Shown here piece after piece: positions 30,563 to 58,015 of a stretch of 64,000 bases of DNA (position 1 is the first letter of the stretch; every line of letters starts with the position of its first letter). Where the stretch lies: assembly GCA_000307935.1 (NCBI GenBank), contig AMWX01000008.1, forward strand, positions 1 through 64,000, written 5' to 3'. The position numbers and the translations under genes were made by a program. The notes beneath the pieces are model-generated. The model had not been told where the DNA came from, made no database searches, and saw only the letters and a program-made list of their open reading frames with translations. The stretch comes from SAR86 cluster bacterium SAR86E (GTDB lineage: Bacteria > Pseudomonadota > Gammaproteobacteria > Magnimaribacterales > D2472).

Positions 30563-30618
30563 CCTATATTATTTAAATGCATCTTTGTGCAGAATGTTTT
30601 TTGTGCAATTATCAACTG

Positions 30619-30641
30619 TATTGACATAAATTATGCCAATA
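30619..30641. promoter_or_regulatory. Candidate TetR operator overlapping a TTGACA -35 upstream of the TonB receptor
   Basis: TATTGACATAAATTATGCCAATA: 11-bp arms with one mismatched pair; matches the 38064-38096 palindrome at all but two central positions. Confidence 0.65.
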
Positions 30642-30690
30642 AATTTACTTTAAATAAAAAAAAATGTGATTTTCATATGGGGGAAATATT

Positions 30691-33024
30691 ATGAAACTTA
30701 ATATATCTAAATTACTATTAGCTTCAGCATTTGCTTTGCCTTTTTCAATTGTGGCTCAAGATAGTCAGATTGAAGAGGTTGTTGTGACTTCTACAAAACA
30801 AGAAAAAAGCATTCAAGATGTTCCGGCAATGATTACTGCATTAACTGCAGTTGATATTGAGCAGTCTAGCATTGAAAATATGTATGATGTTGCTGCCAAT
30901 TTACCTACATTAAGGGTTGATACAAATATTAGCCCAATGGCAACCAGTATTAGAATAAGAGGCATTGGTTCAGCAGGAAATGATCCAGCCATGGAGCCCA
31001 GTGTTGCTATTTTTGTAGATGGTGTATATCTCCCAAAATCAGGCTTAGGTCTTTCGGACATCCATGACATTGAAAGAATAGAGCTTTTACAAGGACCCCA
31101 GGGAACTCTATATGGAAAGAATGCAACTGCTGGAGTCATAAATGTTATTACAAAAGCGCCAGATTTTGAGGAGTCCTCTGGTTATTTTGAAATAGAGGAG
31201 ACTGATTTTAATGGTCAAAGATTGCAGGGCGCTGCAAACATGCCTGTGGGTGATAATTCAGCAATTCGTGCATCCTTTGCTACATATGAAAGTGATGGCT
31301 TTATGAAAAATACAAGACTTGGAAATACAGCTCAAGGAGCAGATGATACTAACCTTACGCTTCGTTACTTATGGCAAGCATCAGATAACTTAAAAGCAGA
31401 TTTTAAGTTTTCTTCACTAGAAAGAAATACATCTACTGCGGTTGACTCCAGGCAAAATAATCCTGTAATTAACACCGGTTATATGCTTTTTGGTATTACC
31501 CCTCTTCCAGACAATGATCGAGATGGAGTTTTTCATGCCGACTATGATCCTATATTTGAGCTTAAGCAAGACTTGTTGAGTATGAAATTAGAGTACGAAT
31601 TGGATAATGGAATATTTACGTCAATTACTTCACTTAACGATTATGATACTTCTGGTGGCATAGACCTAGATTACACAGGGATAGATTTATTAAGAGCCTA
31701 TCAAGTATGGACAGGAGAAGATTTCTCGCAGGAATTTAGATTTAATTCCGACTTAATTGATGGAAGAGAATCAATGCTAGGTTTTTTCTATCAGGATAAT
31801 GATTTCCATTATGATTCTCCTGGATTAGTTTCAGTCGGAAGCCAATTTAGCCCTCTTTTTGGTGCGCTAGCTCAAGGAGCTGCAGCAACTGTGGCAGAGT
31901 TAGGCGCGGCTTTACAGGCAGCTATGGCTGCTGGCCAACCTTTACCTGTTATTGGTCAATTAAAGCAAGGCTTGGATGCGGCTGCGGCTCAAGCTCAATC
32001 TTTAGGTGGTTTAAATGCGACAATAAAGACAGGAGACTCTATTGATGCTGATCATCAATTAAGTACTCAGTCATGGGCATTTTTTGGTCAAAGAACTTGG
32101 CATCTTAGTGATTCCCTAAGAACAACTCTTGGCTTGAGATATGGCACTGAAGAAAAAACTGCGAACTTAAATGCAGTGCATAAACCTCAGTCTCCACTTG
32201 TAAAAGCTGGGCTAGCGCCTTGGGCACTTGCAGGATTTCATGGAGCCATTGATGCAGACTATGATAGAGAGGATACAGCCTTTACTTGGAGTGCAAGTAT
32301 TCAAAAAGATATTTCGGATCAAGTTTCTGTTTATGCAAGTGCAGGAACAGCTTTTAAATCCGGTGGTTTCAATACCTCAGGAGGCATAAATAAAGCTGAA
32401 AGAGAGTTCAAAGAGGAAGAAGCATTTAGTTATGAAATGGGAACAAGGATGTCTTTTGCTGAAAATAGACTAATTGTTAATATGTCCTACTTCAATAGTG
32501 AGCTTGTAAATCGCCAGTTTACAAGACAGCTTGAGAATGGAGTAGGCACGATTGTCGGAAATGCTCTTGAAGATGCTGAGCGGACTGGTTTTGAAATTAA
32601 TGTTAGAGCTAGACCTCATGAAACAATTACCATTAACCTAGGTCTTATGAGGTTGGATGATGGCGGGAGTCAAATTGAAGGCGCTGGGCTTCGAAGAACT
32701 AGTGATGAAGGAGAAAATGCATCTATTATTCATGCTCTCCCTATTGGCAATGGCCGATATTACTCTAGGTTAGATTACGCCTATGAAGGTCTCCATGAAA
32801 ATACTACCGGTCGAAACGCAGAGCTACCTGTTACTAGAAAAAATATAAATGCAAGGATTGGCTGGAGAACCGATGACTGGGACTTTGCTTACTTTGTAAA
32901 AAATCTAACTGATGAAAATACTCCATTTCTTATCCAAACTCCCAGTTCATTATTCGGTGGGACACAAGGAATTCATCCTGCGTTTCCCAAAACAGCAGGT
33001 ATCAGTGTGAGATATAACTTTTAA
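30691..33024 (+). CDS. TonB-dependent outer membrane receptor
   Basis: Signal peptide, IEEVVVTSTKQEKSIQDVPAMITAL plug, IRIRGIGSAG, ERIELLQGPQGTLYGKNATAGVINVIT, C-terminal ISVRYNF. Confidence 0.97.
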   Translation: MKLNISKLLLASAFALPFSIVAQDSQIEEVVVTSTKQEKSIQDVPAMITALTAVDIEQSSIENMYDVAANLPTLRVDTNISPMATSIRIRGIGSAGNDPAMEPSVAIFVDGVYLPKSGLGLSDIHDIERIELLQGPQGTLYGKNATAGVINVITKAPDFEESSGYFEIEETDFNGQRLQGAANMPVGDNSAIRASFATYESDGFMKNTRLGNTAQGADDTNLTLRYLWQASDNLKADFKFSSLERNTSTAVDSRQNNPVINTGYMLFGITPLPDNDRDGVFHADYDPIFELKQDLLSMKLEYELDNGIFTSITSLNDYDTSGGIDLDYTGIDLLRAYQVWTGEDFSQEFRFNSDLIDGRESMLGFFYQDNDFHYDSPGLVSVGSQFSPLFGALAQGAAATVAELGAALQAAMAAGQPLPVIGQLKQGLDAAAAQAQSLGGLNATIKTGDSIDADHQLSTQSWAFFGQRTWHLSDSLRTTLGLRYGTEEKTANLNAVHKPQSPLVKAGLAPWALAGFHGAIDADYDREDTAFTWSASIQKDISDQVSVYASAGTAFKSGGFNTSGGINKAEREFKEEEAFSYEMGTRMSFAENRLIVNMSYFNSELVNRQFTRQLENGVGTIVGNALEDAERTGFEINVRARPHETITINLGLMRLDDGGSQIEGAGLRRTSDEGENASIIHALPIGNGRYYSRLDYAYEGLHENTTGRNAELPVTRKNINARIGWRTDDWDFAYFVKNLTDENTPFLIQTPSSLFGGTQGIHPAFPKTAGISVRYNF

Positions 33025-35084: not shown

Positions 35085-36254
35085 ATGATTGATAAGAATT
35101 TTGACGTTGTTGTATATGGAGCTACAGGCTTTACTGGAAAGTTAGTTGTTGAATACATGCAAAAGATGTATGGCAATGATGCAGAGATTTCATGGGCCAT
35201 CGCAGGCAGAAGCTCAGAAAAGTTAACCTCAGTTAGTGGAGAGCTTGGAGTGGGGTCAGATGTCCCTCATCTTATAGTTGATAGCAACGACTCAGATAGT
35301 ATTACCAAAATGGTTCAACAAACAAAATGCGTGTTGACAACTGTTGGCCCATATCAATTATATGGAGAAAATATTCTTCAACAATGTGTCACTCATGGAA
35401 CTGATTACGTTGATTTGTGTGGTGAGCCTGGTTGGATGCATGAGATGATCAATGCATATTCAGATCAAGCAAAAGAAACAGGTGCAAGAATAGTATTTTC
35501 ATGTGGTTTCGATAGCATACCTTTTGATTTGGGTGTGTACTTTTTACAAAAAGAAGTTATAGCACAGCATGGTCAACCAGCATCTAATGTTAGGGGTAGG
35601 GTTCGAGCCATGAACGGTGAATTTTCTGGAGGAACTGCGGCCTCATTGGGAGCAACGATGGCCTCACTCAAGGAAAAACCAGAATTATTTGAGGTTTTAA
35701 TTAATCCATTTGCATTGTCTGATGGGTTTACTGGACCAGAGCAAGCGCAAGATTCAAAACCTATTTACGATGAAAAACTAGAAACTTGGGTGGCTCCATT
35801 TTTTATGGCTCCAATCAATACTAAGAATGTACATCGATCAAATGCGTTAATGGATCATCTCTACGGGGAGAATTTTTCTTATAACGAAATGTGGATCCAA
35901 GGACCGGGTGAAGAGGGTAAGGCTGCAGCAGAATTTGTTGGCAGCATGAATCCTTTGGCTGATGCGCCAGCCCCAGGAGAAGGCCCTTCGAGGGAATCTA
36001 GAGAGAATGGAAATTATGATGTCCTTTTTTGTGCGGACTTATCCGATGGATCGAGTGTGCATGCCTCTGTCTCAGGCGACATGGATCCTGGATATGGCTC
36101 AACATCTAAGATGATAGCTGAAAGCGCCCTTTGCTTAGTTAACGACTGTGCAGACTTGGGAGGAGGAATCTATACTCCCGCCCCAGCAATGGGTGAAAAG
36201 TTGATCACAAGACTGCAAGCAAATGCTGGACTAACTTTTAAAATAGAAAATTAA
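35085..36254 (+). CDS. Saccharopine dehydrogenase-like / trans-acting enoyl reductase family NAD(P) protein
   Basis: FDVVVYGATGFTGKLVVEYM Rossmann start, VGPYQLYGE, YVDLCGEPGWM. Confidence 0.85.
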   Translation: MIDKNFDVVVYGATGFTGKLVVEYMQKMYGNDAEISWAIAGRSSEKLTSVSGELGVGSDVPHLIVDSNDSDSITKMVQQTKCVLTTVGPYQLYGENILQQCVTHGTDYVDLCGEPGWMHEMINAYSDQAKETGARIVFSCGFDSIPFDLGVYFLQKEVIAQHGQPASNVRGRVRAMNGEFSGGTAASLGATMASLKEKPELFEVLINPFALSDGFTGPEQAQDSKPIYDEKLETWVAPFFMAPINTKNVHRSNALMDHLYGENFSYNEMWIQGPGEEGKAAAEFVGSMNPLADAPAPGEGPSRESRENGNYDVLFCADLSDGSSVHASVSGDMDPGYGSTSKMIAESALCLVNDCADLGGGIYTPAPAMGEKLITRLQANAGLTFKIEN

Positions 36255-37471
36255 TCCTTTGCAGATAATGATCTCATGGTGAGTTTTGCTAGTTGAGACA
36301 TATGAACCTCATCTGGGCCGTCAGCAATCCTGCAAAATCTACTTGTTGTAAAAATATGAGCCAATGGAGTGTCTTGGCACACACCCATGCCTCCAAAAAT
36401 TTGCATGGCTCGACTTGAAACATCTTCACACATTTTTGGGGCAACAATTTTTAACATAGAAATATAATCTCTTGCTGAATCAATGCCATGATTATCCATT
36501 TTTTCAGCAGCAGCCATAACCAAGAGTCGGCACTGCTCAATGTCACATCTACTCCTTGCGATTTCATGCTGCACGCTTGTTTTTTGACTCAAGGCCTCAC
36601 CAAAAGCTACACGATTTTGTGCACGATCACACATCAGCTCAAGGCTGCGTTGAGCCATTCCTACAAACATCATCGCATATTGAAAACGCCCAGGGCCTAA
36701 TCGACCTTGCGCAATTTCAAATCCTCTACCTTCGCCAAGAATCAAATTTGTAACTGGAACTCTAACATTTTTGAATACCACATCACCTTCGCCACCAGGA
36801 GAGTGATTTTCGCCAAACACTCTTAATGATCTAACTATCTCTACACCTGGAGTATCAGTAGGTACTAAAATAGTTGAGTGTTGCGTATGACGAGAGTTTC
36901 CTGGGTTTGATTTACCCATTACCAACATTAATTTACAGCGTGGATTAATTACACCTGTGGTCCACCATTTGTGTCCATTTAGAATATATTCATCGCCATC
37001 GCGTTTAATTTCTAACTCCATGTTGGTTGCATCAGAAGATGCCACATCTGGCTCAGTCATTGCATAGGCAGAACGAATTTTTCCATCTAACAGAGGATCA
37101 AGCCATTCTTTCTGCTGCTCCGGAGTACCATATTTTGCCAATACTTCCATATTACCTCTATCTGGCGCATTGCAGTTAAACACTTGTTGCGCCCATGCAG
37201 AACGGGACATGGTCTCAAACAAAACCGCAATTTCAACGTTGGTTAAGCCTGGGCTCCAAGGAGCATATTCTTTGGGTAAGAATAGGTTCCAAAGCTCCTG
37301 TTTCTTTGCTTCTTTTTTAAGGTCTTCGTACCAGTCTGGATATTGCCACAGGTTCTCATAATTGCTGGTAAATTCATCGTAATCTTTTTCACGAGGGTAA
37401 ATATGCTGCTCCATAAAAATTTCAAGTCTTTCATGAATTGCTTTAGCCTTTTCACCAATTTGGTATGCCAT
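36251..37471 (-). CDS. Acyl-CoA dehydrogenase family protein
   Basis: YAMTEPDVASSDATNMELEIKRDGDEYILNGHKWWTTG, QIFGGMGV, ADGPDEVH. Confidence 0.96.
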   Translation of the reverse strand: MAYQIGEKAKAIHERLEIFMEQHIYPREKDYDEFTSNYENLWQYPDWYEDLKKEAKKQELWNLFLPKEYAPWSPGLTNVEIAVLFETMSRSAWAQQVFNCNAPDRGNMEVLAKYGTPEQQKEWLDPLLDGKIRSAYAMTEPDVASSDATNMELEIKRDGDEYILNGHKWWTTGVINPRCKLMLVMGKSNPGNSRHTQHSTILVPTDTPGVEIVRSLRVFGENHSPGGEGDVVFKNVRVPVTNLILGEGRGFEIAQGRLGPGRFQYAMMFVGMAQRSLELMCDRAQNRVAFGEALSQKTSVQHEIARSRCDIEQCRLLVMAAAEKMDNHGIDSARDYISMLKIVAPKMCEDVSSRAMQIFGGMGVCQDTPLAHIFTTSRFCRIADGPDEVHMSQLAKLTMRSLSAKD

Positions 37472-37480
37472 TTTTTTCCT

Positions 37481-38050
37481 TTATTTATTATCGTTTGCAA
37501 TTAAGAGGCATTGCCTGAGCATAGCCTTTGAAATCTGATCATTATTTAATTTTTGACCCTGAAGCCTCGTCCACATTGCAAAGGCTAGACTGGCATGGAA
37601 TAAATGCCTAGATTCGGTATCAAAATTTAAAACCTCTGGAAGAATCTCTTCGGTTTTATTTTTAATAATATCTTGATACATCAAATAATTTTCTTTTAAA
37701 AATTTGTATTTCCACATATTAGAAACAGTCATAAACATAATTAACTTATGTTTTTCATAGCCTGCATTCATGTGCTTGATTATGGATTGGAGTCGAGTCT
37801 CAAATGATGATGAGGTATCGTACTTGACCTCAAAATCATATTCCTTGCTTAAGACGGCATCAACTGATTTGAAGAGATTTTCCATTTCATCAAATTGTCT
37901 GAAAACAGTCCTTATTCCAACACCTGATTCATCAGCAACTTGTTGAGCGGTTGGCTCTAAATTTCCTGCTTTGAATAATTTAATGCAAGCATCCACGATA
38001 AGTTTTTGGCTATTGATACTTCGTAGATTTCTTCCGTCTTGTTTTGTCAT
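37481..38050 (-). CDS. TetR family transcriptional regulator
   Basis: Short HTH-containing regulator: SQKLIVDACIKLFKAGNLEPTAQQVADESGVGIRTVFRQFDEMENLF; start proposed at internal Met (38050) because the track start at 38077 lies inside the palindrome. Confidence 0.88.
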   Translation of the reverse strand: MTKQDGRNLRSINSQKLIVDACIKLFKAGNLEPTAQQVADESGVGIRTVFRQFDEMENLFKSVDAVLSKEYDFEVKYDTSSSFETRLQSIIKHMNAGYEKHKLIMFMTVSNMWKYKFLKENYLMYQDIIKNKTEEILPEVLNFDTESRHLFHASLAFAMWTRLQGQKLNNDQISKAMLRQCLLIANDNK

Positions 38051-38063
38051 AATTATTTGAAAT

Positions 38064-38096
38064 ATATCTATTGACATAATTTATGTCAATAGATAT
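38064..38096. promoter_or_regulatory. 33-bp perfect palindrome, candidate TetR operator with back-to-back -35 elements
   Basis: ATATCTATTGACATAATTTATGTCAATAGATAT; 16-bp arms around a single central base, between TetR(-) and NMO(+). Confidence 0.85.
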
Positions 38097-38105
38097 TGTT
38101 AATCT

Positions 38106-39029
38106 ATGAATAGAGTAACTGAAATCTTAGGGGTTAAATACCCAATTATTCAAGCGCCCATGGGATGGATTGCTAGAAGTCAGCTAGCTTCTGCTGTTTC
38201 AAATGCAGGAGGATTTGGCATCATCGAAACTTCTTCTGGAGAGACTGAAAATTGCAAAGCTGAGATTTTAGCTATGTCAGAACTCACAGATAAACCCTTT
38301 GGTGTGAACCTGCCTTTAATGTTTTTGAGAGATGAGAGCATGATTGAATTGGTATTAGAGCAAGGTATAAAATTTGTTACTACTTCTGCCGGTGATCCAG
38401 GCAAATACATTCATATTCTCAAAGATGCTGGTATCAAGGTTTTTCATGCAGTACCAAGCGTAGCCGGTGCAATTAAGGCAGCTGATGCTGGGGTGGATGG
38501 CCTTGTGATTGAAGGCACAGAGGGAGGAGGCTTTAAAAGCCCAGAAGAAGTAGGTTTAATTGTGCTTATACAGGCAATTAGAAAACACACAGACTTGCCT
38601 ATTATTGCAGCGGGCGGAATTGTTGATGGAATAGGTATGGCTGCAGCTTTTGCGGCTGGAGCAGAAGGCATCCAGATGGGGACTAGGTTTGTATCTTCCA
38701 AAGAAAGTCCAGTGCATGACAACTTTAAAAATTCAATTATTGACTCAGATGAGCAGGGAACATGGATTCTCAATAAAAAATCAAAACCTTGCATTAGAGC
38801 GCTAAAAACAGAATTTACCGAAAAAATACATGAAGCTGGTGTCATGGAGATGACTGACATGATGAAAATTCAAGATCTCTACTTTGGGGGAGATATGAAT
38901 GCAGCGCCTGCTCTAACTGGCCAGTCAGCAGGATTGATTGATGTAGTCAAACCAGTTGCTCAAATCATCGACGAAACCATCAGCGAATTTAATCAGGCAT
39001 GCAAAAGGATGTCTGCTCAGAAATTTTAA
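38106..39029 (+). CDS. Nitronate monooxygenase (2-nitropropane dioxygenase) family protein, copy 1
   Basis: YPIIQAPMGWIARSQLASAVSNAGGFGIIE, IIAAGGIVDGIGMAAAFAAGAEGIQMGTRF. Confidence 0.93.
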   Translation: MNRVTEILGVKYPIIQAPMGWIARSQLASAVSNAGGFGIIETSSGETENCKAEILAMSELTDKPFGVNLPLMFLRDESMIELVLEQGIKFVTTSAGDPGKYIHILKDAGIKVFHAVPSVAGAIKAADAGVDGLVIEGTEGGGFKSPEEVGLIVLIQAIRKHTDLPIIAAGGIVDGIGMAAAFAAGAEGIQMGTRFVSSKESPVHDNFKNSIIDSDEQGTWILNKKSKPCIRALKTEFTEKIHEAGVMEMTDMMKIQDLYFGGDMNAAPALTGQSAGLIDVVKPVAQIIDETISEFNQACKRMSAQKF

Positions 39030-39031
39030 GA

Positions 39032-40072
39032 ATGAAAAGCTTGAACCCTATCCCAGTTATTGGAGTGCCCGCTTCACCGTATACAAGAAAGATGGTTGCC
39101 TTGCTTCGTTACAGAAGGATTCCATACACAGTAGAGTGGGGCAATGCCAGGGAATTGATTGAAAAACATAAACTTGAGGCGCCAAAACCCGTTTTACTTC
39201 CAGTGATGATTTTTGAGATTGATGGTGCGCATAAAGCAATCACTGATTCCACTCCAATCATTCACCATTTAGAAAATGAATTTCCTGATAGAGGAGTGAT
39301 TCCTCACGATCCAAAACTAGCTTTTTTGAACTATGTTTTAGAAGATTTTGGAGATGAGTGGGTCACAAAATATATGTTTCATTACAGATGGCACTTCAAA
39401 GAAGATATAGATAAAGCAGGCACCATTTTGCCATTGTTGCATGATGTAAGTCTTGATGATGAATCACATAAAGCTTTCAAACAGGGATTTGCTGAATTAC
39501 AGATAAGCCGACTTTGGGTTGTAGGTTCAAATGAAATAACTGCTCCAATCATTGAGTCAAGTTACAAGAGATTTCTGCAACAGCTTGAAGATTGCTTGTC
39601 AAAGAATGCATTTTTATTTGGCAGTCGCCCATCATCAGCTGATTATGCAATATTTGGTCAATTGTCAGCATTAATAGGCTTTGACCCAACATCTCGCACA
39701 ATTGCTCATGAGATATCACCGCGAGTTATTGCATGGCAGGATCGTATGGAGGACATGAGCGGCATAGATCCCGCGGAAGACGATTGGTTGACTTATGAGG
39801 TTGCCCAAGAGGACTTAGCTGACATCTTTCAAGAGGTCGGCAAAGTTTATTTGCCCGCACTCTTGGCAAATGCAAAAGCTATCGCTGCTGAGGAGAAGAC
39901 TTGGACCACTCAAATAGACGGTGCTCAATGGAAGCAGCGCAGCTTCCCATATCAAGCAAAATGTCTTCAATGGATTAATGATGAATTTAATGCTTTAAAT
40001 AGTGATGACCAAAATCAAATCATGGTCTTTTTAAAGAAAACTGGTTGTCAGGATTTAATTGTAAAGGAATAG
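39032..40072 (+). CDS. Glutathione S-transferase-like protein
   Basis: N-terminal IPVIGVPASPYTRKMVALLRYRRIPYTVEWG, ITDSTPIIHHLENEF; start moved to Met at 39032 after the NMO stop. Confidence 0.85.
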   Translation: MKSLNPIPVIGVPASPYTRKMVALLRYRRIPYTVEWGNARELIEKHKLEAPKPVLLPVMIFEIDGAHKAITDSTPIIHHLENEFPDRGVIPHDPKLAFLNYVLEDFGDEWVTKYMFHYRWHFKEDIDKAGTILPLLHDVSLDDESHKAFKQGFAELQISRLWVVGSNEITAPIIESSYKRFLQQLEDCLSKNAFLFGSRPSSADYAIFGQLSALIGFDPTSRTIAHEISPRVIAWQDRMEDMSGIDPAEDDWLTYEVAQEDLADIFQEVGKVYLPALLANAKAIAAEEKTWTTQIDGAQWKQRSFPYQAKCLQWINDEFNALNSDDQNQIMVFLKKTGCQDLIVKE

Positions 40073-40074
40073 AG

Positions 40075-41166
40075 ATGGAAGTATTAAGAACGCCTGATGA
40101 GAGGTTTAATAATTTAAAGGAATATCCCTTTGAACCTCATTACACAAACATTAAAACTCATGATGGAACAACATTAAGAATTCATCATATCGATGAAGGG
40201 CCAAAGGATGGCCCAATACTTTTAGCTATGCATGGGCAACCAGTTTGGAGCTATTTATATGCAAGAATGATTCCGTTTTTAGTGAAGGTTGGCATTAGAG
40301 TAATTGCTCCAGACTTACCAGGTTATGGTAAATCAGATAAACCAGCTGCCAGAGAAGATTACAGCTATCAAAATCAAGTAGATTGGATGGGTGAATGGTT
40401 GAAAGAAAATAATTTTTTAAATTTAACTTTTTTTGGTCAGGACTGGGGAGGTTTAATTGGGCTTAGAATGGTTGCACAAGATCCCGATAGATTTATTAAG
40501 GTATCTATGGGAAATACTGGATTACCATATAACCCAGATGTTCCGCAAGAAGTAATTGAAAAGGTCAAAGAGTTTAGAGCAAGTAATTTAAAGCTTACTC
40601 CAATGAGCATGCAAAAAGAGGTTATGCAGATGGATGGAAAAAACCTTTCAAAAGAGTCATCACCTACATTTCATCCATCATTAAAATTTATGTATTGGCA
40701 AAAATTTTGCTGGGATACAGAAAACCTACCTGTAGGATTTATTAACTCAACCATGATGGAAAAAAGATCAAAAATTTCTATGATAGGACAGTATCTTTTT
40801 GAAAATTTAGGCTTAGCAAAGATCTCACCATTTACCTCTGACCTGATGAAGGCTTATGAAGCGCCTTTTCCAGATCCATCTTTTAAAATGGGTCCTCGCG
40901 CAATGCCCAGTCATGTTCCAACTCTTCCAGATCAATCTTTAGAAGCTCAGAAAAAGGCAAGAGAATTCTTTAAAACCTCAACCAAACCTTTCTTAGCAGT
41001 ATTTGCGGGTGACGATCCAGTCACCAATGGTATTGAAAAAGATGTCCTCAAAATGGCGCCAAATGCAAAAAGTGCACCTCATATTGGAGGAGGGCATTTT
41101 TATCAGTGGACAAGACCAGAGCAGCTATCTGATATTCTTATATCTTTTATAAAGGAGCAAACATGA
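40075..41166 (+). CDS. Haloalkane dehalogenase-like alpha/beta hydrolase
   Basis: [79 protein letters not shown]; DhlA-like layout. Confidence 0.85.
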
Positions 41167-41846
41167 TTGATTTTTATACTGCACCAACACCTAATGGGCA
41201 TAAAGTATCATGCACCTTAGAGGCCATGGAGCTCGAGTATGAGACTCATGTAGTTAATTTGATGGAAAATGAGCAAAAAAAACCTGAGTTTCTCGCAATT
41301 AGTCCAAATGGCAGAATCCCTGCCATTGTTGATAGAGACGCCGATAATCTTCCAATTTTTGAGTCAGGCGCCATTATGATCTATCTAGCTGAGAAGACTG
41401 GCAAGCTTATGCCAACAGATCTGCATGAAAAAGCTAAGGTGCTCGAGTGGGTCATGTTTCAGATCGGTGGCGTAGGTCCGATGATGGGGCAGGCTAATGT
41501 GTTTTTTAGATATTTTCCAGAAAAAATTCAGCCAGCTATAGATCGTTATCAAAATGAAGGCAGAAGACTGTTTGAGGTTTTGGATGATCATTTAGCAAAG
41601 CAAGAATGGTTAGCAAAAGATTATTCAATTGCAGATATTGCTAACTGGTGTTGGGTGAGAACTTATAAATGGTCAGGAATTTCAATTGAGGGCCTTAATC
41701 ACTTAGAGCGATGGATGAAGGCTATGTATGGCCAACCAGGAATGAGTGCAGGTCTTGAAGTCCCTATAAAAATGGAAAGTTTGTTAGATGATGATAAAAA
41801 AGCCAAAGAATTTGCAAAAAATGCAGAGAAGATGGTTAAAAAATAA
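41163..41846 (+). CDS. Glutathione S-transferase (YfcG-like)
   Basis: [52 protein letters not shown]. Confidence 0.93.
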
Positions 41847-41858
41847 AGAGGATAAATT

Positions 41859-42473
41859 ATGTTAAAAGTTCATTTTGTGGCTGGTACTAGGGCAGGTCGG
41901 GTTGTATGGCTGTTAGAAGAGTTAGGATTAGAGTATGAAGTAAATATTATGCCCTTTACTAAAGAGGGGCTTAAATCTTCAGAGCACAGATCAAGGCATG
42001 CATTAGGTAGAGTGCCAGTATTAGAAGATGGAGATATTTCAATTTTTGAGTCAGGCGCCATCATTGATTATGTTCTTGAGAGACATAAGAATGGAGGATT
42101 AAAACCGAGTTCAGATTCTTCTGAATTTCCGTTTTATCTCCAGTGGTACCACTATTGCGAGGGCATGGTTATGCCCCCAATGAATCAAATAGTTGTTCAG
42201 ACTATTTTATTGCCACCAGACCGAAGAGATGAAACTGTTTTAAATCAAGCAAAAAACCTACTCACAAAATCTTTAGCTCCAGTGAATGAAAATCTTGCTG
42301 ATAAAGATTACCTAATTGGAGATTTTTCAGCTGCAGATCTCATGCTTGGACACTCATGCTTCATGGCTAACAGAATGGGATGTGTGAGCGAGGAAATGCA
42401 AAATATTAAGGACTATGTTGCAAGAATTAATGCAAGACCTGCCTTTCAAAAAGCCATTACGATGGGAGAATAA
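41859..42473 (+). CDS. Glutathione S-transferase
   Basis: VWLLEELGLEYEVNIM, HALGRVPVLEDGDISIFESGAIIDYVLE. Confidence 0.92.
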   Translation: MLKVHFVAGTRAGRVVWLLEELGLEYEVNIMPFTKEGLKSSEHRSRHALGRVPVLEDGDISIFESGAIIDYVLERHKNGGLKPSSDSSEFPFYLQWYHYCEGMVMPPMNQIVVQTILLPPDRRDETVLNQAKNLLTKSLAPVNENLADKDYLIGDFSAADLMLGHSCFMANRMGCVSEEMQNIKDYVARINARPAFQKAITMGE

Positions 42474-42475
42474 TT

Positions 42476-42892
42476 ATGGAGGTAAAAAACCATTTAAAAC
42501 CTCATAAAACTCAGATTGAGGGATTTCTTGAGGGTGATACTGACACGCCTATAACAATGCTAAATCTTTTAAAGTTTAAAGAAAAGGCTGAATATGAGGA
42601 TGGAAGAGAGACAGATCTTACCGGAAAAGAGGCCTATTCTATATATGCTAAAGAGGTTGTAGAGCATCTTAAAAAAGTAGGAGCAAATTGGGTTTTGTCT
42701 GGAAAAGTAAGTCGCCTCATGATTGGAGAGGCTGAAGATTTATGGGATAGCGTAGGAATTGCTAGGTACCCAAGCCGAAAAGCCATGTTTGAAATGATCA
42801 TGGACCCCGATTACTTAGAGAGCGAAAAACATAGATCGGCTGGTCTAGAAGGACAGTTAAATATCGAGTTTAAAGAAGACGAATTATTATGA
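42476..42892 (+). CDS. DUF1330-like small protein, cytoplasmic copy
   Basis: MLNLLKFKEKAEYEDGRETDLTGKEAYSIYAKEV, RYPSRKAMFEMIMDPDYLESEKHRSAGLEGQ. Confidence 0.75.
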   Translation: MEVKNHLKPHKTQIEGFLEGDTDTPITMLNLLKFKEKAEYEDGRETDLTGKEAYSIYAKEVVEHLKKVGANWVLSGKVSRLMIGEAEDLWDSVGIARYPSRKAMFEMIMDPDYLESEKHRSAGLEGQLNIEFKEDELL

Positions 42893-51619: not shown

Positions 51620-53695
51620 TTATAAGGGAATAATATTTAGCTCACTTGACTTAGGTATATACCAAATAGGAGAAGACCATGCGCGTTCTTGAATCGTTTC
51701 ATCTAGATCAGGTCTTGGCTTGACTCCTGCTTTTAATGCATCCCATGTAGACCATCTACATGTCGGATTTTCTAAAACTCGAACATAATAAAAAGCTTTA
51801 ATAGTTGGATCAAAATCGGGATCCACCCAAGTAGTTTTTAACTCGACCGCTCCGACATCACTTGAGATGGAGCAATTATTGATGTTTACCTTAGCGCCAT
51901 TATCAGGACAGCGATTAGTCATGGGATCTACTGTTAGTCCATCTGAGCATGCAACATCATAAACTTTCTCCTTCGGGGTTCCAGAGGCATTTTCAATCCA
52001 TCCTTTGATGATTTGTACTCTTTGAAGCGGAGCTCCTAATTTATCACGCTGAGCCCAAACTAAGAATTGTGGCGTTTGATTATCTTGGCTAAATAGATCT
52101 GCACCCATGGTGACACCTTTTGCATAGGCATTTTTAACCATATCCTCAGAATCTAAATCAATTGACTGCATGTCAAATCCAGCAAAGAATCTGACTGCCA
52201 TTCTTGTACCTGTTGTAGCGAATGTCTCTTTTCTTTTGAAGGCCTGAAAAATAGAATCTCGAGTATTTTCTTCTGCCCATGCAACTGCCAGGCCTGATGC
52301 ACTCCATTGATCAAATCCAACATCTGCATAGGTTCTACCCTCAATATCCTGAATGCTTATAGGCTGATCATAAAGCTCAGCATATTCTTCCAGTTGTTCA
52401 ATTCTATCTGGAGTTAAAGGTACACTTCCTCTGCCCATATCAGTTCCATCCAATACTCCAGCCTTCGACCAATAATTATCTTCATCAAATCCTCCAGCAC
52501 CAGTATGAGTATCACTTGATCCTATTAGACCAAATTTATAAGGATTACCACGACCTTCCCAGTCTAAGGTTAGGCCTCTTAAATATGCATCTCTAACATA
52601 GCCTCCTTGGGGCATGCTGTATGTTGGAGGCCTGCTTCCAACTCTTTTATCCATGATTTCAAAATCTGCCCATTCGTCATCTGGAGAAAGAAGTGGGTGA
52701 GTATCAGAGGTTCCTTTAACCTGGGTCATTTCAACAACAGGCTCATTTCGCATTCGCTTTTCAGCATATTCTATGCTGATTGGATTTCCTCTAAATGTTT
52801 CAACCTCAAACATTTGGCCATTAGAGCCATTACTATTGTGAGGCATGGCCAAAGAATCGACGCCCTTATCTCTTAAACCATCCATCCATGTCCAAAGATC
52901 TTCTGGATTTATGGAATCAATTCTTGTCCAAGGTCTAATGGGAGCATTTGAAGAATTAAAAATAACATTTCTGTGCAAGTTGCCACCCTCAACATCTGTT
53001 GAAGTTGTAAATTCATAGCCAATGAACGTAGTAAATTCTCCTGGTTTATTGAATTCTTCTGCTGCATTTGCAACATCTGCCCATGCAGATTTATGCACAT
53101 CATAATCAAATGATTGAAGGGCTACTTGAATGTTGTTAGTGAACCAAGCTTTCCAAACTTTTGGATGCCAATATGGGTAAGGCTTGACGATTGCTTGAGT
53201 TAAGACAGAACTGAACAGGTCGGCTCTTGCGCCCAGTGAATCAACCGTAACATTTTCGGGTCTATTCAGATTATGCATTGGCTTGGTCCATTCATTTTTT
53301 GACATCTCTGAGGATGTATCAGCATAATTTTCTATCATCCCCATGTAAAAACCATGATCAGTAACTGCATAAAAATCCAAAGGCTCTCTTAATTTCATAT
53401 CAAAACCTAAAGGATGCTTGATGGCCTCACCTTTTGCATATCTGTAAGCATCATAAGGAGTAGCTGTCACACCAAAAATATATGCATCAAATGAATACTT
53501 CGTATGAACATGCAAGTCACCATAAAGAGGAATTCGGTCTGGATTAGAGGGTGCAGCATTTTCCGTTTCCGGCTGATCTATTGAAAAGTCAACAATCTCC
53601 AAAGCTGAATCAGTTTGAAAGTTTGTATAAAACCCTGTCGCATATATCAAAAAAATTGTTGAAACAACCACTAGACCTATAAAAGATTTATTCAT
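51620..53695 (-). CDS. DUF3604 protein, predicted PHP-like hydrolase, N-terminal membrane anchor/signal
   Basis: YGDLHVHTKYSFDAYIFG, DFYAVTDHGFYMG, AMPHNSNGS, GLIGSSDTHTGAG. Confidence 0.9.
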   Translation of the reverse strand: MNKSFIGLVVVSTIFLIYATGFYTNFQTDSALEIVDFSIDQPETENAAPSNPDRIPLYGDLHVHTKYSFDAYIFGVTATPYDAYRYAKGEAIKHPLGFDMKLREPLDFYAVTDHGFYMGMIENYADTSSEMSKNEWTKPMHNLNRPENVTVDSLGARADLFSSVLTQAIVKPYPYWHPKVWKAWFTNNIQVALQSFDYDVHKSAWADVANAAEEFNKPGEFTTFIGYEFTTSTDVEGGNLHRNVIFNSSNAPIRPWTRIDSINPEDLWTWMDGLRDKGVDSLAMPHNSNGSNGQMFEVETFRGNPISIEYAEKRMRNEPVVEMTQVKGTSDTHPLLSPDDEWADFEIMDKRVGSRPPTYSMPQGGYVRDAYLRGLTLDWEGRGNPYKFGLIGSSDTHTGAGGFDEDNYWSKAGVLDGTDMGRGSVPLTPDRIEQLEEYAELYDQPISIQDIEGRTYADVGFDQWSASGLAVAWAEENTRDSIFQAFKRKETFATTGTRMAVRFFAGFDMQSIDLDSEDMVKNAYAKGVTMGADLFSQDNQTPQFLVWAQRDKLGAPLQRVQIIKGWIENASGTPKEKVYDVACSDGLTVDPMTNRCPDNGAKVNINNCSISSDVGAVELKTTWVDPDFDPTIKAFYYVRVLENPTCRWSTWDALKAGVKPRPDLDETIQERAWSSPIWYIPKSSELNIIPL

Positions 53696-53760
53696 TTTTA
53701 TTTTATTCCCCCATATTTATCACAACTATTTTAACTTATTTTTTTCAGTCATAGCGATAA

Positions 53761-53782
53761 ATTGACACAATATATGACAATA
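53761..53782. promoter_or_regulatory. Degenerate candidate TetR operator / promoter (TTGACA ... TATATA) in DUF3604/GST divergent intergenic region
   Basis: ATTGACACAATATATGACAATA versus ATTGACATAATTTATGTCAATA: 19 of 22 identical; TTGACA at 53762, TATATA at 53784. Confidence 0.5.
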
Positions 53783-53829
53783 CTATATAAAGACATTAGC
53801 GCTTAATCATATTTAATTTAAGGAGTGGC

Positions 53830-54672
53830 ATGAGCGATTCATCAACATACGTTCCCCCAAAAGTCTGGAAGTGGGAAAATCAAAGTGGCGGCAAGTTCAC
53901 CAATATTAATAGACCTATTTCAGGCTCTACACATGAAAAAGAGTTACCAATAGGCAAGCATCCTCTTCAGCTTTATTCTTTGGGCACGCCAAACGGAATT
54001 AAAATTACAGTTTTGCTAGAGGAGCTTCTAGCACTTGGTCATGAGGGAGCAGAATATGATGCATTTCTCATTAATATTGGTGAAGGAGCGCAGTTTGGAA
54101 GCGGCTTTGTTGAAATTAATCCAAATTCTAAAATCCCTGCATTATTAGATATGAGCACTAAACCTTCTACCCGTGTTTTTGAGTCCGGCGCAATTATGCT
54201 TTATTTAGCTGAAAAGTTTGGAGAGCTCATTCCAACTGATCAGTCTAAAAAAGCTGAATGTATGTCATGGTTTTTTTGGGGCATGGGCAGTTCTCCATAC
54301 CTAGGTGGTGGCTTTGGACATTTTTATGCTTACGCGCCTGAAAAATTTGAATATCCGATTAATCGTTTCGCTATGGAAGTAAAACGTCAGTTAGATGTTC
54401 TAGATAAGAACTTATCAAAAAGACAATATTTATCAGGAGATGAATTTAATATTGCAGATATAGCAGTGCATTCATGGTATGGAACTTTGATTTTACGTAA
54501 TGCATATAACTCAGCAGAGTTTTTGGATTTAGCATCTTATAAAAATGTTGTTCGTTGGGCAGAAGAAATTGCAGAGCGACCTTCATACAAAAGAGGCTCA
54601 AGAGTAAACAGGGCGCCTAGTCCTGAAGACAATGCGATTGTTGAACGTCATGATGCAAGTGATCTAGACTAG
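53830..54672 (+). CDS. Glutathione S-transferase (YghU-like)
   Basis: LYSLGTPNGIKITVLLEELLALG, INPNSKIPALLDMS, ESGAIMLYLAEKFGELIP. Confidence 0.93.
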   Translation: MSDSSTYVPPKVWKWENQSGGKFTNINRPISGSTHEKELPIGKHPLQLYSLGTPNGIKITVLLEELLALGHEGAEYDAFLINIGEGAQFGSGFVEINPNSKIPALLDMSTKPSTRVFESGAIMLYLAEKFGELIPTDQSKKAECMSWFFWGMGSSPYLGGGFGHFYAYAPEKFEYPINRFAMEVKRQLDVLDKNLSKRQYLSGDEFNIADIAVHSWYGTLILRNAYNSAEFLDLASYKNVVRWAEEIAERPSYKRGSRVNRAPSPEDNAIVERHDASDLD

Positions 54673-56038: not shown

Positions 56039-58015
56039 ATGAAAATTAAAAATAATTTGTTAGTCGTGCTTGTTTTGATTGTCGCATCATGCTCAGATTC
56101 AAATAAATCAACAAATTTAGAAGTATCTTTGCATGATAAACCATTACTGCAAGTTGAAATTCAACCTAGGCCATTGCCTAACCCAAATAAAAATGCATAT
56201 TTTGGTGACCTACATGTTCATACAGCAAATTCATTTGATGCTTATACTTTTGGCACAATTAGTACACCTGCAGACGCATATAAGTATGCGCAAGGTTATC
56301 CAATACTGCATCCAAGCGGATTCCTAATCCAACTTAGCAGACCATTGGATTTTTACGCAGTTACTGACCATGGTGTCTTTATGGGATTGATGAAGGAGGC
56401 TGCTGATACAACCTCTGAATTCTCAAAGTATGAGCTTGCTAAGCCCCTTCACAATTTAAATGAATCAGTAAATGATGGACTCTTTTCTCTTATTAAAAGG
56501 GCTGGTCTCTTTAGACCTTTTGGTCAAGCAGTCAGGAAAGGTCTTGATGATGGAACCATAGATAGCTCTATCATAGAGGAGGTAAGTAAATCAGTATGGC
56601 AACAAACTATTAAAGCTGCTGATGAGGCTTATGCTCCAGGCACTTTCACTACCTTTGCTGCCTACGAATATACTTCCAGTTTTGATCTTTATGATAAATA
56701 TTTACATCGAAATGTCATATTTAAAGATACAAAAGATCTCCCAGCTAAAATTTTTACCAGGGCTGATAGTCAAGATCCTGAGGAGCTCTGGGATTGGATG
56801 AATTTAATGAGATCCAAAGGAGTTGAGAGTCTTGCTATTCCTCATAATTCAAATATCTCTGGAGGAGCTACTTTTGCTCTCATTGATTATAATGGCGGCC
56901 CCATTGATGAAGAGTACACAAAGAAACGAGCTTTCAATGAGCCTTTGGTTGAAATAACTCAAGTCAAAGGCACTTCAGAAACTCATCCATTGCTGTCTAA
57001 AAATGATGAGTGGGCAGCTTTCGAGGTAAAAACGGGAATGGAGGAAGAAAAACTTATCAGTAACTTAAAAGGGAGCTATGTTCGAGATGCATACTTAAGA
57101 GGTTTAAGTCTTGCAGAAAAAGGTTTAAGCAATCCATATAAATTTGGATTAATAGGCTCAAGCGACACGCATGTTTCTGGACCATCAGACAGTGAAGAAG
57201 TTTTTTTCTCAAAAGTAGGCATTCTTGATGCGACAGCTGAGTTGAGAGGCTCTATTCCATTCAAAAGATTCTATGGAACATTTTTAAAGGCGTTGCGACC
57301 CAATATTCTTAAAGAAGTTGATGGTAAAAACTATTTTGCTGCAAACGATCGCGTGATTAATTTTTCAGCTTCCGGTCTTGCTGGTGTTTGGGCTGAAGAA
57401 AATACACGAGAAGCCATTTATGATGCTTTTCGCCGCAAAGAAACATTTGCTACAAGTGGACCACGAATGAAAGTAAGATTTTTTGCAGGCTATGATTTAG
57501 AGAACTCTCAACTTGATGATTTAACTCTTATTCAAGATGCATATGCCAACAGTATTCCGATGGGGGGAACGCTCAATACTGAATCAAATAAAAATCCAAC
57601 GTTTTTAGTTTGGGCGATCGCAGATCCGATGGGAGCTCCATTGCAGAGAACTCAAATTATTAAAGGATGGTTAGAAGATGGAGAGCATAAAGAAAAAGTT
57701 TACGATGTAGCATGTTCTAATGGATTAAGCGTTGATCCTTCGACCAATCGTTGTCCTGATAATGAGGCTTGGGTTGATTTAAGTGATTGTTCTATTAGCG
57801 CAGACTCTGGATCAAGAGAAATGAAAGTTTTTTGGCAAGATCCTGAATTTCAAAATGGCCAGAATACTTTTTATTATTCTAGAGTACTTGAAAATCCAGT
57901 CTGCAGATGGTCAACATGGGATGCAGTTAGAGTTGGTGAAAAGCCTAGATCAGATTTACCTGCCACAATTCAAGAGAGAGCTTGGTCTTCACCTATTTGG
58001 TTAAAGTCAAGTTAA
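56039..58015 (+). CDS. DUF3604 protein, predicted PHP-like hydrolase, lipoprotein
   Basis: Lipobox-like LIVASC; FGDLHVHTANSFDAYTFG, DFYAVTDHGVFMG, IPHNSN, GLIGSSDTHVSG. Confidence 0.9.
   Translation: MKIKNNLLVVLVLIVASCSDSNKSTNLEVSLHDKPLLQVEIQPRPLPNPNKNAYFGDLHVHTANSFDAYTFGTISTPADAYKYAQGYPILHPSGFLIQLSRPLDFYAVTDHGVFMGLMKEAADTTSEFSKYELAKPLHNLNESVNDGLFSLIKRAGLFRPFGQAVRKGLDDGTIDSSIIEEVSKSVWQQTIKAADEAYAPGTFTTFAAYEYTSSFDLYDKYLHRNVIFKDTKDLPAKIFTRADSQDPEELWDWMNLMRSKGVESLAIPHNSNISGGATFALIDYNGGPIDEEYTKKRAFNEPLVEITQVKGTSETHPLLSKNDEWAAFEVKTGMEEEKLISNLKGSYVRDAYLRGLSLAEKGLSNPYKFGLIGSSDTHVSGPSDSEEVFFSKVGILDATAELRGSIPFKRFYGTFLKALRPNILKEVDGKNYFAANDRVINFSASGLAGVWAEENTREAIYDAFRRKETFATSGPRMKVRFFAGYDLENSQLDDLTLIQDAYANSIPMGGTLNTESNKNPTFLVWAIADPMGAPLQRTQIIKGWLEDGEHKEKVYDVACSNGLSVDPSTNRCPDNEAWVDLSDCSISADSGSREMKVFWQDPEFQNGQNTFYYSRVLENPVCRWSTWDAVRVGEKPRSDLPATIQERAWSSPIWLKSS

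Follow-up and report, generated by a model that had tools for sequence, protein, structure and literature searches.

A conserved palindrome between tetR and an NMO operon as the predicted operator of a TetR-type repressor in SAR86 bacteria

SAR86 bacteria are among the most abundant bacteria of the surface ocean. Our literature search found no paper on SAR86 regulators, and in the 2024 description of the first SAR86 isolate, which infers lipid, steroid and aromatic catabolism as well as many GSTs, the word 'regulator' is absent from the main text (PMC11582366). The window analysed here, a stretch of 64,000 nucleotides from SAR86 cluster bacterium SAR86E, contains a tetR gene and a divergent NMO operon, and the start codons at 38050 (tetR) and 38106 (NMO) are 55 bp apart, a divergent gap below 200 bp. 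Most of this gap is taken up by a palindrome, which raises the question of what the palindrome does and which protein reads it. We established the anatomy of the sequence, its conservation, its co-occurrence with tetR, its recurrence in promoters and the fold of the TetR protein.

The sequence ATATCTATTGACATAATTTATGTCAATAGATAT occupies positions 38064-38096 and is a perfect palindrome of 33 bp, with arms of 16 nt that are 100% complementary around a centre of 1 nt, exactly where the original prediction had placed it; the core, TGACA-N7-TGTCA, covers 38072-38088. Arms of at least 16 nt have a chance expectation of 7e-5 in 64 kb, and the longest arms across 60 Markov shuffles of the window reached 11 nt, which excludes a chance origin; the runner-up palindrome within the window has arms of 9 nt. 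A reading as a terminator was rejected after a search for a terminator-like site found none. The -35-like and -10-like elements proposed earlier were likewise found as described. On the + strand, the NMO promoter has TTGACA at 38071-38076 and TATTGT at 38094-38099, while on the - strand the tetR promoter has TTGACA at 38084-38089 and TATATT at 38061-38066. Both spacers measure 17 bp, both -10 elements are invariant in nine relatives, and the two hexamers together match the consensus at 10/12 positions for NMO and at 11/12 for tetR. By anatomy and conservation, the inverted repeat overlaps both predicted promoters.

The tetR gene (37481-38050, - strand) encodes 189 amino acids from the start at 38050. 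An alternative in-frame ATG at 38077, inside the palindrome, was rejected because a 1-nt indel breaks the frame in relatives and conservation begins at 38050. The acyl-CoA dehydrogenase gene (36251-37471, - strand) follows tetR after 9 bp, is likely cotranscribed with it, and stands between tetR and a saccharopine-dehydrogenase-like gene. A close ortholog beside tetR occurs in only one other of the genomes searched (G009); in most tetR-carrying relatives tetR faces the upstream operon genes directly. On the other side, the NMO/FabK-like flavin oxidoreductase gene (38106-39029, + strand) is the first of the divergent operon; FabK was discarded as its name, as the score lies under the curated cut-off. 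The remainder of the presumed operon (39032-42892, + strand) is co-directional and closely spaced, in the order GST-like, alpha/beta hydrolase (approximately 40075-41166), two GST-like and NIPSNAP-like; Pfam checks covered the hydrolase and the gene at 41163-41846, and the other names come from sequence appearance.

The adjoining regulator is the candidate reader of the palindrome. The window TetR matches the N-terminal helix-turn-helix family PF00440 with an E value of 4e-05 and 23.8 bits, just below the gathering score of 24, and 21/31 members of its subfamily match at E <=0.001 (best 5e-09). The structure model (pLDDT 91.5, 11 helices) has the all-helical TetR fold with a larger C-terminal domain; the PDB matches listed for it are TetR-family regulators with TM scores of approximately 0.4-0.65, two of them with E <0.001. 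As modelled, both fold and subfamily are confirmed. Members of the subfamily have an invariant DGRxxRS arm preceding the helix-turn-helix and a recognition helix RTxxR, and SAR86 cluster records carry a TetR that is 64-97% identical to that of the window. The symmetry of the site, as read from the DNA, fits a TetR dimer.

From these observations we infer binding, repression, a ligand and transcription starts. We hold it highly probable, judging by sequence comparison, that TetR is an autorepressor whose operator, the palindrome, lies over -35 and spacer and silences both divergent promoters and several unlinked ones. The palindrome would then be the high-affinity autoregulatory operator of the adjoining TetR-family repressor, a dimer of which (perhaps two, given the 33 bp) would sit on TGACA-N7-TGTCA and cover the -35 elements and spacers of both promoters, so that RNA polymerase would be kept off both together. 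Shut in this way would be tetR (joined, in the window genome, by the acyl-CoA dehydrogenase gene) and the NMO-GST-hydrolase-GST operon, until TetR is released by a ligand, which is probably hydrophobic or of acyl-CoA type and handled by the pathway. The set of enzymes, taken with the published inferences on SAR86 catabolism, suggests a hydrophobic substrate and nothing more specific (PMC11582366). The same repressor is predicted to act also on unlinked, looser copies of the site in a similar register, at a TonB receptor gene, a thiolase gene, an amidohydrolase-SDR operon and DUF3604/GST.

Autorepression by a TetR placed over two promoters is a known, ordinary device, as in SmeT and in TtgR of Pseudomonas putida, which is similar to SmeT. 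In Stenotrophomonas maltophilia, a single 28-bp pseudopalindrome in the smeT and smeDEF promoter regions is the binding site of SmeT, a repressor of the TetR family, which blocks RNA polymerase and thereby represses both smeT and the pump genes smeDEF (PMC3128119). The SAR86 locus shares with it a single inverted-repeat site for tetR and a divergent target, here predicted from sequence, but it differs in having a perfect palindrome, enzymes instead of an efflux pump as products of the divergent genes, and further copies of the motif at unlinked promoters, and the sequence relation to SmeT is limited to the TetR helix-turn-helix. In Tn10, too, tetR and its target tetA are divergent, little DNA separates them and both promoters are repressed (PMC3511530), although Tn10 has two 15-bp operators where SAR86E has one 33-bp palindrome of a different motif. 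In Pseudomonas aeruginosa, the TetR-type PA3973 has palindromes over its own promoter and many unlinked sites (PMC9736018); it resembles the SAR86 regulator in adjoining an acyl-CoA dehydrogenase gene, in the palindrome over its promoter and in having unlinked sites, which are predicted for SAR86, but differs in gene arrangement and in its motif, which includes TGAATCC-GGATTCA as opposed to TGRCA-N7-TGYCA. Our literature search returned nothing relevant on a TetR with TGACA/TGTCA half sites, nor, among the titles and abstracts found, on a described TetR-NMO divergent pair. What is new is the predicted order-wide operator and regulon in SAR86.

The TetR family also includes activators, such as AtrA, and regulators that apparently control only themselves (PMC3511530), so that TetR might be bound at the palindrome as an activator, or might regulate itself alone and not NMO. 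We consider this very improbable: those examples have intergenic gaps above 200 bp, compared with 55 bp here, divergent TetR regulators with less than 200 bp between the genes repress their neighbour, and 5/5 such neighbours tested were repressed (PMC3511530), and the site lies over the -35 elements and spacers of the two promoters, a position from which a dimer, once bound, should keep polymerase away.

The reading of the palindrome as an operator is backed by comparison with other genomes. When the site is aligned with those of nine relatives, 31/33 palindrome columns are invariant, as are 37/39 columns of the palindrome plus both -10 elements, compared with 2/8 columns from the + strand -10 to the NMO start and 1/11 in the tetR leader. 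The neighbouring coding stretches have 38/55 and 38/50 invariant columns, and the palindrome is therefore more conserved than the adjoining coding DNA; both of its varying columns are due to a single genome (L005). Conservation in related genomes, which had been put forward as a check, is therefore near-complete for the palindrome while the untranslated flanks have diverged. One genome, G010 (L097), keeps the perfect palindrome although its tetR is disrupted, either through a frame change plus a stop or through a sequencing error, and we count it against the operator reading.

Six members of the genus have an NMO ortholog (91-95% identical) and no tetR, and the palindrome is absent in all six. 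In these loci NMO directly follows the saccharopine-dehydrogenase-like gene (gene order shown for three). By gene order, NMO continues the upstream operon in the six genomes and the flanking genes are joined as one predicted operon; tetR and the palindrome are, on the same comparison, inserted in an otherwise continuous operon. In a tree built from five cluster proteins, several nodes of which are weakly supported, these six genomes fall at three positions among tetR carriers, which suggests that tetR was lost, gained or replaced repeatedly. A further core copy (<=1 mismatch) elsewhere in the genome is present in 10/10 tetR-carrying genomes of the genus versus 3/17 without tetR, a contrast with a hypergeometric chance of approximately 3e-5, calculated by hand and for genomes that are related. 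In the three exceptions (G002, G006 and G017) the amidohydrolase gene retains a core site; two of these genomes have no NMO locus at all and may be incomplete, whereas G006 has an NMO locus without tetR. They, too, count against the operator reading.

Across the order, tetR homologs are present in 48/204 genomes. The motif TGRCA-N7-TGYCA lies within 100 bp upstream of 34/48 tetR loci, whose homologs are 26-100% identical, compared with 0.00026 per 100 bp in shuffles; the order and genus relatives are related genomes, so these counts do not come from independent samples. Most tetR loci without the exact core have one mismatch, typically TGTCA-N7-TGTCA, and the core accompanies homologs down to approximately 28% identity, across four families of the order and differing neighbours. 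A motif-bearing tetR almost always stands back to back with a member of the same cluster, and, when loci are compared with the window genes, this member varies by lineage among NMO, the first GST-like gene, the hydrolase, the second GST and the NIPSNAP-like gene. In genus g9, tetR has no upstream motif and precedes an acyl-CoA synthetase gene in the same direction, which we count against the operator reading. Conservation, co-absence with tetR and the company of homologs nevertheless support the original reading of a TetR operator within two -35 elements.

In one SAR86 family, seven loci (L026, L027, L155-L157, L159 and L162) have a tetR with two tandem operator copies, 25 bp apart, with the half-site variant TGACAGT. 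In G034 (L089, 2978-3028) a thiolase-like gene is followed by a motif copy and, in tandem with it, a partial one; its genus has tetR without an upstream operator.

Another regulator might read a real operator while this TetR acts elsewhere. The motif copy in three genomes without a detected tetR would agree with that, but the motif tracks tetR homologs through four families and changing neighbours and is absent from most tetR-less genomes, and we give this alternative very little credence.

Recurrence of the motif bears on how far the control by TetR may extend. A weight matrix was built from the NMO and amidohydrolase sites, and a scan of the 64-kb window gave three matches. The match at 38066, a training site, scores 43.5 bits; in 30 shuffles of the window the maximum averaged 3.8 bits, and one reached 14.9. 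The second copy (30616-30644, + strand, 32.2 bits) precedes the TonB receptor gene (30691-33024) by 46 bp, and the third and weaker one (53757-53785, 17.7 bits) lies between DUF3604 (51620-53695, - strand) and GST (53830-54672, + strand), with a core that is identical in six relatives. Two DUF3604-like genes (51620-53695 and 56039-58015) flank the GST-like genes under this third copy. Sites beyond the fetched loci rest on core mismatch patterns. Outside the window, the same genome has a copy 34 bp upstream of the thiolase gene and another 47 bp upstream of the amidohydrolase (Amidohydro_3) gene, which is followed by an SDR-like gene. The amidohydrolase copy is found in 12 genomes including that of the window, though the gene upstream of the copy varies; it is missing from G016, which has tetR, and this counts against the regulon reading. 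Other genomes have copies before a hydrolase paralog and before an RND-type efflux pair, both named from sequence appearance. A two-mismatch core match, ATCGACCTTCGCAATGTCAAT, was set aside as a presumed conserved coding stretch, as it recurs near-unchanged in many genomes with and without tetR.

At most one-directional targets both arms are kept and a -10-like hexamer lies 17-18 bp from the gene-side TTGACA; in nearly all of the predicted regulon promoters the gene-side TTGACA stands as the -35, with the other arm filling the spacer. A poor fit to this register is seen at the RND promoter, the DUF3604 promoter and that of one hydrolase paralog. That the palindrome is merely two overlapping, opposed consensus promoters, its symmetry a by-product and no regulator bound, would agree with the perfect TTGACA on each strand and the correctly spaced -10s, but is highly unlikely, given that two -35s account for 12/33 bp where 31/33 are invariant, that the second arm, which is not a -35, is kept at the one-directional amidohydrolase, TonB receptor and thiolase copies, and that homologs keep the spaced repeat with non--35 sequences such as TGGCACTATGAGTGCCA.

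With TetR as the repressor that reads the palindrome, we lean slightly towards a wider proposal based on these comparisons: an order-wide SAR86 regulon in which a TetR subfamily (DGRxxRS arm, RT[VI][FY]R recognition helix) and its operator TGRCA-N7-TGYCA would control hydrophobic-substrate uptake, conjugation and breakdown, and in which the tetR-operator unit would have been repeatedly gained, lost or moved to different points within the cluster, which would place its genes now in one long operon, now in a half under separate control. The motif can be scanned for in any genome and yields a list of co-regulated genes; it also poses a testable ligand question, and the tetR-minus genomes offer a natural comparison.

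The original prediction also placed both transcription starts very near the ATGs, and the spacing of the -10 elements agrees. The start codon follows the end of the -10 at a distance of 6 nt for NMO (ATG 38106) and 10 nt for tetR (ATG 38050), which puts the predicted NMO start on the A of its ATG (38106) and the predicted tetR start at approximately 38054, corresponding to leaders of 0 nt and approximately 4 nt. Neither NMO nor tetR has a Shine-Dalgarno match of four bases, while such a match is found at 25/44 window genes (random rate 24%). In relatives the NMO -10 remains 6-8 nt from the ATG despite sequence changes, so that the predicted start falls at the ATG or within approximately 2 nt of it. 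It is therefore plausible that the NMO mRNA is leaderless and the tetR mRNA nearly so (approximately 4 nt). The NMO arrangement is not isolated: at two further window genes (22506 and 25908) a perfect TATAAT stands exactly 6 nt ahead of the ATG and a Shine-Dalgarno is lacking, so this genome may have many leaderless transcripts.
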